Assembly (NCBI GenBank): GCA_021819085.1
Contig: JAKASJ010000007.1
Coordinates: forward strand, 1-64,000
Direction: 5' to 3'
Origin: Pseudomonadota bacterium
Lineage (GTDB): Bacteria; Pseudomonadota; Gammaproteobacteria; Acidiferrobacterales; UBA6901
DNA length: 64,000 bases
Positions within the stretch are counted from its first letter, which is position 1; each line of letters starts with the position of its first letter. The notes beneath the pieces were generated by a model that was not told where the DNA came from, did not search any database, and saw only the letters and a program-made list of their open reading frames with translations. This document shows positions 5,015-9,516 of this stretch, one piece after another. Position numbers and translations under genes: made by a program.

Positions 5015-6166
5015 GTGGCCTCGCCGGGCGACAAGGAGCTTGCCGAACTGCGTCGCAGTTTGTCGCGATCGCACCGCCACATGGAGGCGCAGGTGCGTCA
5101 CAACGAGCGCATCTGGGCCGGTTTCCGTCAGATCGAAATCCAGATGATCGGCGCGCAGTCGCTGGGTGAGCTGGTGGAGACGCTTGTCAGCCGGATCCCG
5201 GAATTGTTTCTGGCGGTTGACTGCGTCAGCCTGGTCTGCGTGGATCCGGAATACGAACTGTCGCGTCTGATGGCCGCCTACCCGAAGAGCCAGATAGGTC
5301 GCTATTTCATTCCGGTCGATCGCGAATGGCTGGACACGCTGGTTTCCGTAACCGGCAGGCCCCGCTTGGGACCGTGCGATGCCCAATTGCAGGCCCGCAT
5401 GTTCTCGAGCTGCGGTGTGCGCCTCAATTCCTGCGCAATCGCGCCGCTCACGCTGCACGGCGCCCTCATCGGTTGCCTCAATCAGGGAAGCCGCGACGCC
5501 GGCCATTTCAGCGCAGATTCAGCCACGGACCTGCTCGAGCATCTGGCCGCGGTCACCGCCATGTGCATCGACAACGTCGTCAACCACGAACGCCTCAAGC
5601 GCGACGGACTGACCGATGCGCTTACCGGAGTTGCCAACCGGCGGTTCTTCGAACGACGCCTGCATGAAGAGCTCGTTCTGAGGCACAGACGCCGCAACTC
5701 GATTGCACTGCTGCTGGCGGACCTGGACCACTTCAAGGATTTGAATGATCGCTACGGTCACCAAGTGGGGGATGACGCGCTGAGGCAGGTGGCCCGCGCG
5801 CTGAGTGAAGGGTTGCGGGCCAGTGATGTGCTCGTACGCTATGGGGGCGAGGAGTTCGCTCTGCTGTTGCCGGATACCGGTCTGGAAAAGGCGCTGGAGA
5901 TTGCCCAGCGCCTGCGTGCGCAGGTAGCCGGTCTTGCCCTGGACGGCATGGGCAGCGAGGTCGCCGCGGTGACCGTGTCCATCGGCGTCTCCTGTCTCTG
6001 GCCTGAGGGCGGTTTCGCGCCGAAGACGGACGGCGACGCCGGAACATGGCTGTTGCGCCAAGCAGACGATGCGCTGTACCGCGCCAAGGCTGCGGGACGG
6101 AACCAGGTTGTTGCAGCGGAGCGGCCGCGGGCTGGCAGGCGAAGCCCCGATTCCAAAAAGCATTGA
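5015..6166 (+). CDS. Diguanylate cyclase with N-terminal DUF484/GAF-like sensor domain
   Basis: The 383-residue product starts at a GTG. A coiled-coil start (residues 5-45) leads into a DUF484/GAF-like sensory domain (about 50-190) and a GGDEF domain (about 195-370). The active motif is intact: YGGEEF, with DLDHFKDLND and ANRR preceding it, so diguanylate cyclase activity is expected. No classic RxxD inhibitory site is obvious immediately upstream of GGEEF. There is no membrane segment, so it should be cytosolic. The start is uncertain because no strong ribosome-binding site is visible. It lies near yajQ and upstream of the CsrB/RsmZ-like RNA described at 6640. Confidence 0.88.
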   Translation: MASPGDKELAELRRSLSRSHRHMEAQVRHNERIWAGFRQIEIQMIGAQSLGELVETLVSRIPELFLAVDCVSLVCVDPEYELSRLMAAYPKSQIGRYFIPVDREWLDTLVSVTGRPRLGPCDAQLQARMFSSCGVRLNSCAIAPLTLHGALIGCLNQGSRDAGHFSADSATDLLEHLAAVTAMCIDNVVNHERLKRDGLTDALTGVANRRFFERRLHEELVLRHRRRNSIALLLADLDHFKDLNDRYGHQVGDDALRQVARALSEGLRASDVLVRYGGEEFALLLPDTGLEKALEIAQRLRAQVAGLALDGMGSEVAAVTVSIGVSCLWPEGGFAPKTDGDAGTWLLRQADDALYRAKAAGRNQVVAAERPRAGRRSPDSKKH

Positions 6167-6639: not shown

Positions 6640-6833
6640 ACCTTCATCAATGGAGTTTCCCTTGCTTTTTCACCGGCAAGGATTATAGTTGTTCCATACG
6701 GTAAGGAAACTGTAGCCAAGGAAAGTGAGGCGACACTGGAGGTCTTCTGTACAAGGATGACTCCGGTGCATGGAAGCACCGGAAAGTAGTGATCCATACC
6801 CCGCAGGCGGCCGAAAGGCCGCCTCTTTTTTTT
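6640..6833 (+). ncRNA. Putative CsrB/RsmZ-type CsrA-sequestering small RNA
   Basis: This intergenic stretch carries eight GGA motifs, several displayed in hairpin loops. TACGGT/ACTGTA (6697-6702 with 6709-6714) exposes AAGGAA. The stem at 6735-6744 with 6759-6767 exposes AAGGAT. CCGGTGC/GCACCGG (6763-6769 with 6776-6782) exposes ATGGAA and shares bases with the previous stem. Another AAGGA lies between GCC at 6715 and GGC at 6729. The region ends in a strong intrinsic terminator. This is the architecture of RNAs that titrate the translational repressor CsrA/RsmA. The 5' end is a guess, placed just after the AT-rich promoter-like segment. I saw no clear GacA-type upstream palindrome. No convincing reading frame covers it. 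Confidence 0.7.
6805..6833 (+). terminator. Strong Rho-independent terminator
   Basis: AGGCGGCC and GGCCGCCT form a perfect 8-bp GC-rich stem closed by a GAAA tetraloop, followed at once by C and eight T residues. It closes the putative small RNA on the plus strand. Confidence 0.92.
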
Positions 6834-7194: not shown

Positions 7195-7518
7195 TCAACG
7201 TTCCAGGTACTTGAGTTTGCCGGGGACTTCGTCCCATTCCTTGGCGTCGGGCGGCTCCGGCTTCTTCTCGGTCAGAACCGGCCACTTGCGGGCCAGATCC
7301 GCATTGATCGCCGTGAATTGTTCCTGATCCGGCGGCAGGTCGTCCTCAGCGAAAATCGCATTGACCGGACATTCAGGCACGCAAAGCGTGCAGTCTATGC
7401 ATTCGTCGGGGTCGATGACGAGGAAGTTGGGACCTTCATGAAAGCAATCGACCGGACACACCTCGACACAGTCGGTATATTTGCATTTGATGCAGTTTTC
7501 GGTGACCACATAGGTCAT
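7195..7518 (-). CDS. fdxA: 7Fe ferredoxin (3Fe-4S plus 4Fe-4S)
   Basis: The 107-residue protein opens [17 protein letters not shown], followed by VEVCPVDC and [12 protein letters not shown]. This is the cysteine pattern of Azotobacter-type ferredoxin I, with one 3Fe-4S and one 4Fe-4S cluster. The C-terminal extension ending GKLKYLER is typical of FdxA. The ATG at 7518 is chosen because similarity starts there; the upstream in-frame extension is low-complexity. It is a cytosolic low-potential electron carrier, and its partner is unknown. It is transcribed away from the next gene, with about 290 bp between them. Confidence 0.95.
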
Positions 7519-7812
7519 TGCTCGTCTCTCCCGCAAATCGTTTCGGTGCGGCCGTCCCACCGTGTTTCGACTTGGAAAATCAGGGCCGGCGCCGCCGCCT
7601 GATGATACACGTTCCGCGGCGCGTATTGGAACCGCTCGGCCGCACCGGGTGCGTCTGGATGGCATCGGTTCGGCAGCATGCTCCGGGGCTTGGCGTCGCC
7701 TCCGACTGCCAGCGTCATTGCGGATGGATGGGCAGACTAGGAACTGGGCCGCTCCTGAGTTAGATTAGTACCGTTGCCTATACGGGTGTTGACACCGTTT
7801 CGGAGCCCGCAC

Positions 7813-9516
7813 ATGAGCCATGCTGCTTCCGCTGATTCCAGCACATCCCCCGGAGCTGGACACTCGCAAGTCCGAGTCAGGGACACGAGATCCTGGATCG
7901 CATCACTGCCGCTAGCCGACAGCGTTGCGAGCGCCGAACGTCTCTATCGGGCCGTGTCTGACCTGAACCGGCGGGAACTCGATCCGGGACAACGTCTGGA
8001 TCTGATGGAGCTCTACGCACAGCCGGTTGCGGCGGTGTCTACGGCACTGCAGGCGCCATGGGTGTACCTGCGCCTGCCAATGCCTCCCAAGGCGCGCCGA
8101 CACGCCGAATTCCTGCGCAATCTGCACGCCGAAATGGCCTGTGGCTACCAGTACGCGCTGCGGGATCTGTTCAAGGGTCATCATCCCTGGGACAGGAAAT
8201 CGATGGTGTGCCGGGCGGCGGAACGGGCGATCCACCAGCTTGGAGAGGTGCTGCTGCGTTCCTACCAGCTCTACATGCCTGCTCCGGCCGGGGTGTGGCG
8301 GGAGATCCACAGCCTCTACCGGCACCTCGAGGAGCGTGGTTTGCTCGATCATCCGCTGAGTCGCGCGCCGGGAGATTCCGGCGCGCGGCCGACCGTACGG
8401 AATACGTACCTGCGGGTGCTGCTGTTGGGCCTGTGCGGACCGTATCAGTTGCCGCAGAATGAATGCCTGCGAGTCAATGCCTTTCTGTTGAACTGGGCAG
8501 ACAAGGCGTCCATTGCGTCGCGCCCTGAAACGGTTAGCCCGGATGGCCGTTTTCTGGTCGATCTATCCGCCGATTCGCCCGCCCGTCCGATTCCCAAGGA
8601 TGCCAAGCCGGCAGCCGGACCCAACCTGCGGGTACTGAACGCATTCGGGCTCGCGCGTGCCGTGTACGGGTTCATGCAGCAACTGCAGGGTGGGGCGTCG
8701 ATGCGTCAGTCCGGAATTGGGGTCGACTGTTCCGACAGCGGATGTCTCGATGTGCTGCAGCTCATGGTCCGTTTTTGGGGGGCAGGGGCGAGCCGCCTGT
8801 ACCCGCGGCACAGTGCACGCGATGCGGAGCTGTCCTTGTGTGTGGGGCTCAAGGCTCTGCATTTCTTTAGTGGCGGTGGCAGATCCTTTACGCCACCCTC
8901 GATGGACATCGGTTCCGGGCGCCTGAGCATACCGGTTCCGGAACTCGGAAGACGCAATCCGGAGGAGGCGTTCATCGATCTCGACAGCAGCGCCGTTTTC
9001 CCCGAACCGGAAGGGTCGCACCGCCGATCGCGGCAACCTGCGGAGCCGGGGTTTGAGACCCATCAATGGAGAATCTGCGATGAAAGCGCGAGCGGATTGG
9101 CGCTCGCGCATCGCGGTGGCGGCGCCTCGGTCGGCGTCGGAGATCTGCTCGGTATACGCGGGCCAGGTGCTGCCGGGTGGGGCGTGGGGGTCGTGCGCTG
9201 GCTCAAGAGTCCCGATACCGCCCGTGTGGACATCGGCGTGAAGATGCTTGCTCCGGGTGCGGTGCCAGTCGCGGTGAAACCCGTCAATGGCGACGCGCCG
9301 TCGGGCTATGTCCAGGCGTTGCAGCTGGCGGCGATCCCGCCCGTGGGTCAGCCGCCGACGCTGCTGGTGGGGCGCGGGGTGGTATCGGTGGGCAAGGATC
9401 TCCATCTGCTGGACGAACGGGATGGCAGCAAGCCGTACCGCATTCGCATCCTTAAGGTGATCAGACGCACGCCTTCGTTCGAGCAGGCGGTCTTCGAGCC
9501 GGTTCGCGAGCCGTGA
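7813..9516 (+). CDS. Large protein with PilZ-like C-terminal region
   Basis: The product is 567 residues from the ATG at 7813; an in-frame GTG/ATG region lies 39 bp further up. No signal peptide or membrane helix is visible. The N-terminal 400 residues are helical and Leu/Arg-rich and were not recognised. From about residue 415 the sequence has a PilZ-like pattern: W-x-I-x-D-x-S-x2-G-x2-L, then GDLLGIRG, then WGVGVVRWLK with a strand returning as VDIGVKML. PilZ domains bind cyclic di-GMP, but the canonical RxxxR motif ahead of DxSxxG is not evident, so binding is uncertain. The gene is alone, between divergent fdxA and convergent suhB. Confidence 0.7.
   Translation: MSHAASADSSTSPGAGHSQVRVRDTRSWIASLPLADSVASAERLYRAVSDLNRRELDPGQRLDLMELYAQPVAAVSTALQAPWVYLRLPMPPKARRHAEFLRNLHAEMACGYQYALRDLFKGHHPWDRKSMVCRAAERAIHQLGEVLLRSYQLYMPAPAGVWREIHSLYRHLEERGLLDHPLSRAPGDSGARPTVRNTYLRVLLLGLCGPYQLPQNECLRVNAFLLNWADKASIASRPETVSPDGRFLVDLSADSPARPIPKDAKPAAGPNLRVLNAFGLARAVYGFMQQLQGGASMRQSGIGVDCSDSGCLDVLQLMVRFWGAGASRLYPRHSARDAELSLCVGLKALHFFSGGGRSFTPPSMDIGSGRLSIPVPELGRRNPEEAFIDLDSSAVFPEPEGSHRRSRQPAEPGFETHQWRICDESASGLALAHRGGGASVGVGDLLGIRGPGAAGWGVGVVRWLKSPDTARVDIGVKMLAPGAVPVAVKPVNGDAPSGYVQALQLAAIPPVGQPPTLLVGRGVVSVGKDLHLLDERDGSKPYRIRILKVIRRTPSFEQAVFEPVREP

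Follow-up and report, generated by a model that had tools for sequence, protein, structure and literature searches.

A conserved small RNA gene of the Acidiferrobacterales, probably a new CsrA-sequestering member of the Csr/Rsm class

The closest described relatives of the RNA reported here antagonize CsrA. CsrB and CsrC of Escherichia coli (RF00018, RF00084) work as CsrA sponges and depend on BarA-UvrY, while RsmZ and RsmY of Pseudomonas (RF00166, RF00195) are RNAs of 120-150 nt with several GGA, ANGGA hexaloops on short stems, and their own promoter and intrinsic terminator. Activation by GacA/UvrY is usual for Csr/Rsm small RNAs without being strictly defining. CsrA remodels weak stems, and its protein antagonist FliW is used elsewhere. 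The ANGGAN hexaloop has been described as a high-affinity feature of the CsrA/RsmE site, and base-pairing small RNAs of the McaS/GadY type, which have few GGA motifs, are able to antagonize CsrA (PMC7652899).

The locus analysed here lies in a window of 64,000 nucleotides, the whole stretch of DNA under study. The initial annotation proposed that 6640-6833, an orphan intergenic region between a diguanylate cyclase gene and fdxA, encodes a CsrB/RsmZ-type RNA. Coordinates and Pfam agree on this position (Table 1). As to the interval, its 3′ part (6696-6832) stands as the RNA, whereas its 5′ third is a conserved promoter. The count of eight GGA is exact (6652, 6680, 6705, 6720, 6738, 6755, 6772 and 6781), though only six belong to the inferred transcript: those at 6652 and 6680 lie upstream of or inside the promoter, so that the transcript, its 5′ end placed from the position of the -10 box, starts near 6696. 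A CCTTGC...GCAAGG stem also falls in the promoter and was rejected as RNA structure. The promoter layout (TTG..., 16-17 nt, TATAGT/TATATT) is found upstream of all 21 homologues examined, the remaining sequence having diverged; one genus member (L004) has TAATAGT. Since a strict promoter scan of the region reported no promoter, the assignment rests on this conservation. At the other end, the predicted GAAA-loop terminator with its eight T is present; all 8 pairs of the hairpin (6805-6824) are kept in 19 homologues, the outermost one with changes on both sides. The region thus has a promoter and an intrinsic terminator of its own, as an independent intergenic gene should, and is almost certainly a genuine small RNA gene.

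Table 1. Features of the small RNA locus and its neighbours (positions in the window)
Feature	Positions	Strand	Basis or remarks
Diguanylate cyclase gene, GAF/DUF484-GGDEF	5015-6166	+	Pfam; upstream neighbour
Sigma-70-type promoter	6662-6689	+	-35 TTGCTT 6662-6667, 16-nt spacer, -10 TATAGT 6684-6689; layout conserved
Csr/Rsm-type small RNA (predicted), ~137 nt	6696-6832	+	Homologues by blastn and covariance models; GGA columns selectively conserved
Hairpin 1, ACGGU[AAGGAA]ACUGU, GGA hexaloop	6698-6713	+	Can pair at every position in 5/5 genus members
Hairpin 2, GCC[AAGGAAAGUGA]GGC, weak	6715-6731	+	MFE fold of window and L002
Site 3, CUGGAGG, open	6736-6742	+	P(unpaired) 0.86; columns 0.6-0.8 conserved
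CAAGGAUG site	6752-6759	+	Exact match to CsrA/RsmE site CANGGANG
Hairpin 4, UCCGGUGC[AUGGAA]GCACCGGA, ANGGAN hexaloop	6762-6783	+	GGA P(unpaired) 0.99
UCCAUACC, complementary to GGUAAGGA (6700-6707)	6793-6800	+	The two segments pair in the MFE fold of the window and of L002
Intrinsic terminator, AGGCGGCC-GAAA-GGCCGCCU, C, eight T	6805-6833	+	T run 6826-6833
fdxA, 7Fe ferredoxin	7195-7518	-	Pfam Fer4 + DUF3470; downstream, convergent

A blastn search of 60 relatives detected the RNA in every genus member, and Sulfuricaulis was matched through the 3′ half of the RNA. A covariance model (R1), then a second one built from these RNAs (R2), widened the homologue set to about ten genera in several families of the order, which appears to be the Acidiferrobacterales. 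Strong scores, with E below 1e-12, were obtained for 19 members, the majority of them part of the model itself. One contig of G033, 89% identical to the window, sits in the bin of another family, probably through a binning error. Weaker R1 and R2 matches were judged by eye, many of them being terminators alone. R1 matches L037-L043 were rejected as mostly ends of cytochrome c or other genes aligned via their terminators; L044, a second R1 match in the source genome that overlaps a tRNA-like end, was rejected too. R2 matches at 34-40 bits, taken as evidence only after inspection, were terminator-only in a phylum-wide sample, with 0-2 ANGGA each. A gapped DNA pattern run over the genome contigs returned mostly chance matches.

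How unusual are the GGA motifs of this RNA? A count of six GGA in 137 nt is reached by 3% of same-length segments of the window and by 2-7% of shuffles, so that the count taken alone is weakly unusual, and we rejected it as sole proof (p 0.02-0.07). Its four ANGGA are found in 0.2% of segments (shuffle p ~0.009), and its three CANGGA have a shuffle p of 0.0002-0.0006. Every homologue carries 5-10 GGA and 3-6 ANGGA; several such motifs, above expectation and retained in relatives, are what is asked of a Csr/Rsm RNA. Taken by themselves, these motif counts would be no more than suggestive; it is conservation that decides. In an alignment of 19 sequences, with each genus or group weighted once and the terminator excluded, the columns of the window GGA have a mean base frequency of 0.71, against 0.34 for other columns and 0.37 for other G/A (permutation p 0.00025), and conservation reaches 0.9-1.0 for the GGA at 6705, 6755 and 6772. 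Stems vary while the GGA loop stays, which is the pattern predicted for a CsrA site.

Compensatory changes, expected in related genomes if the hairpins are real, were indeed found around the GGA hexaloops of hairpins 1 and 4. In the case of hairpin 4, all 8 pairs are kept in 6 genus members, two of them via compensatory changes, and the counterpart at this place in Sulfuricaulis is GGGAUGCA[AGGA]UGCAUUCC. Outside the genus, hairpin 1 reads UGGC[A(A/G)GGAN]GCCA in several genera, and G015 has CAGC[AAGGAU]GCUG; of the four pairs scored, three show both-sided changes. In all, 63% of cells pair, the non-pairing cells being mainly those of Sulfuricaulis, where another stem is used. Hairpin 1 is missing from the best fold, where it competes with long-range pairing, and the comparative evidence favours it. 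The hairpin 2 site is poorly conserved beyond the genus. The CAAGGAUG site has GGA columns conserved at 0.9-1.0 across genera, and its exact form CANGGANG is what we take to be an RsmE high-affinity site; yet folding of the window RNA predicts it to be paired.

The predicted fold is indeed the weakest part of the case for a CsrA sponge. Compared with shuffles, folding is more stable both for the full region (z -4.0) and for the transcript by itself (z -2.9), the latter value owing much to the terminator. In the ensemble, the probability of being unpaired is 0.63 for the GGA at 6720 and 0.42 for that at 6705, with the values for 6738 (site 3) and 6772 (hairpin 4) standing in Table 1, and those at 6755 (0.02) and 6781 (0.17) are mostly paired. 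Over all homologues, GGA triplets are mildly more open than other triplets (0.57 versus 0.46). Folding thus leaves the GGA at 6772 open, as anticipated, but places two of the six in stems. The earlier claim that at least three GGA sit in hairpin loops is firm for 6772 only, and holds in full only when one also counts hairpin 1, which has comparative support, and hairpin 2, which is weak. Display of the GGA sites would accordingly be established by comparison and partly by folding: clearly for hairpin 4, from its openness and covariation together, and from covariation, outside the best fold, for hairpin 1.

The long-range pairing that competes with hairpin 1 joins GGUAAGGA to UCCAUACC, which makes the latter a possible intramolecular mask of site 1. 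It raises the rather unlikely scenario of a dual RNA, a CsrA sponge in which the 3′ segment switches the 5′ site, the fold changing with CsrA occupancy or a partner RNA. Besides its presence in the best folds (Table 1), the pairing can form in every genus member except one; 94% of cells pair in five genus members, and the pairing is lost when the partner is slid. It shows no covariation, two pairs are lost in L005 (restorable by a bulged register), it is absent in Sulfuricaulis, and complementarity between GGA and UCC may be due to chance. Such a switch would be a refinement of the CsrA-sponge explanation, compatible with it.

A trans-acting RNA of Hfq/ProQ type, working by base pairing and in which the GGA would be incidental or seed sequences, is improbable. 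The 3′ single-stranded AGUAGUGAUCCAU, almost invariant in the genus, is unexplained by CsrA sites, and the strong eight-T terminator would also suit Hfq RNAs. But conservation between genera outside the terminator is concentrated in the GGA triplets, GGA loops on changing stems are not predicted by an unpaired seed, and the homologues resemble RsmZ and RsmY. The same point separates this RNA from McaS and GadY: they share few GGA motifs and possible CsrA antagonism, but base pairing is the conserved function there, whereas here the GGA are the conserved part.

Resemblance to RsmZ and RsmY remains below the Rfam thresholds. With the window and with the homologues alike, every family, RsmZ, RsmY, RsmX, CsrB and CsrC included, stays under its gathering threshold. 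Over 4227 families, the homologues scored highest below threshold, and over the full length, with RsmZ for L009 (26.0 bits), L024 (24.7) and L008 (20.0) and RsmY for L030 (23.9), all on the same strand and far under gathering (26 versus 44 and 24 versus 57 bits). The covariance search suggested with the first reading thus gave no gathering score, with RsmZ and RsmY as the best sub-threshold families of the homologues. The top match of the window sequence itself is Atu_C8 (21.3 bits), which is not a Csr family and is regarded as driven by the terminator and hairpin. Conversely, R2 scores CsrC of E. coli at 25 bits (E 4e-4), the match falling on the annotated locus in the annotated orientation, and CsrB goes unrecognised (10.6 bits). 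The RNA shares with RsmZ and RsmY the size and layout described above, and differs from them in gene neighbourhood and in having no upstream GacA box. It probably belongs to the Rsm/Csr functional class but to no existing Rfam family.

Other GGA-rich RNAs came up in these searches. In family f4, genus g6 of the order, L096 (1501-1649), L125 (1501-1651), L127 and L129 are a different Csr-like RNA, outside Rfam, with 7-9 GGA almost all in small hairpins, even in the terminator loop. R2 also found intergenic GGA-rich RNAs in other orders of the class (L088, L090, L091, L092, L093, L094, L101, L107 and L112) and in family f2 of the same order (L126 in G022). They have 5-11 GGA plus a terminator, L088 having 11 and L090 containing CCAAGGAUGG, ACAUGGAUG and GCAUGGAUGC. 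An Rfam gathering scan of the class-level matches returned nothing Csr-like; they are probably unlisted Csr RNAs.

The neighbourhood of the RNA is variable. A GAF/DUF484-GGDEF diguanylate cyclase gene adjoins it in the source genus and in L027, L028 and L087, that is in four genera and two families, with fdxA also downstream in L027; this linkage is perhaps ancestral. In Sulfuricaulis, L029-L032 and L036, the RNA lies between genes for a PD-(D/E)XK nuclease and a UvrD-type helicase, called by Pfam on L029 and by similarity at the other loci. In four genera the RNA follows the cyclase gene in the same orientation, yet it is very improbable that it is a cis element (leader or 3′ UTR) belonging to an adjacent gene: promoter and terminator are its own and are conserved, fdxA is convergent, and the nuclease and helicase neighbours recur in six or more genera in either orientation. 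The same RNA in varied neighbourhoods argues for a trans-acting gene, and the promoter and terminator retained throughout for an independent one, the cyclase being context and no proof of c-di-GMP control. The GGDEF neighbour had been taken to support a Csr context; we dropped it as functional evidence since it is common to four genera only and the nuclease and helicase genes take its place in six or more others, and the CsrA-sponge inference does not need it. Further downstream, a 580-aa ORF (7774-9516, +) has no Pfam match, and a similar protein adjoins the RNA in L123 (G050). A short coding gene, the 10-codon frame MTPVHGSTGK (6757-6789, +) that runs open from ATG ACT CCG to TAG in the window, L002, L003 and L005, can be set aside as probably a chance frame, for its ATG is ACG in L004, the frame differs in Sulfuricaulis, and the L005 changes are non-synonymous, those in the stem preserving pairing.

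The protein that a sponge would need is there: the genome encodes a canonical CsrA of 70 aa (G000:C51). A second CsrA-domain ORF on contig C39 (L137, 181-390, -), 69 aa with an insertion and unlike canonical CsrA, is also matched in genus members G003 and G004. FliW was absent from all 60 genomes. No GacA/UvrY orthologue was recognised in the genome, where the best response regulator is NarL-like (226 bits for NarL versus 99 for UvrY/GacA). Next to uvrC there is no response regulator; the flanking genes, named through sequence resemblance, are a uracil-DNA-glycosylase-like gene and pgsA, not gacA. No GacA box upstream of the RNA scored better than shuffles. Closer UvrY-like proteins are encoded in G013, G017 and G036, which belong to other families of this order, and the absence of GacA in the genus is supported, not proven.

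Taken together, the RNA is, with a probability of roughly 0.88, a new CsrA-sequestering member of the Csr/Rsm class, its binding and expression being predicted from sequence. The initial CsrB/RsmZ-type reading is sustained by the promoter-RNA-terminator unit conserved across genera in different neighbourhoods, the selectively kept GGA hexaloops, the sub-threshold RsmZ and RsmY matches of homologues and the presence of CsrA. Against it stand the missing Rfam gathering score, the two paired GGA of six, and the lack of a GacA orthologue or box. Six GGA in ~137 nt are also few beside the 22 of CsrB (PMC7652899) in 369 nt, although homologues in the order carry 5-10. As judged from sequence and conservation, the sigma-70-type promoter would drive a ~137-nt RNA ending at the intrinsic terminator. 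This RNA would present four to five CsrA sites (AAGGAA hexaloop, AAGGA, UGGAG, CAAGGAUG and AUGGAA hexaloop); by analogy with the class, CsrA dimers would bind pairs of sites and be titrated from mRNAs, and CsrA-repressed genes would be translated more. More tentatively, and at somewhat less than even odds, the sponge would work without a recognisable GacA/UvrY or FliW, with another regulator acting on the plain sigma-70 promoter and the 3′ segment able to mask the first site.

In the literature consulted, no Csr RNA of Sulfuricaulis or Acidiferrobacter turned up, and it seems that no Csr/Rsm RNA was described before in this order of sulfur bacteria. The order gains a concrete, predicted CsrA antagonist, together with a model, R2, that finds the RNA in many of its genomes. 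The finding indicates, too, that whole orders escape the Csr families of Rfam. According to a machine-learning survey of small RNAs regulating RsmA, all species with an experimentally validated one have GacS/GacA, and further such RNAs are predicted in species without it (PMC5568370). A Csr-type RNA conserved in a genus without recognisable GacA or FliW would make alternative activators testable on a defined promoter.
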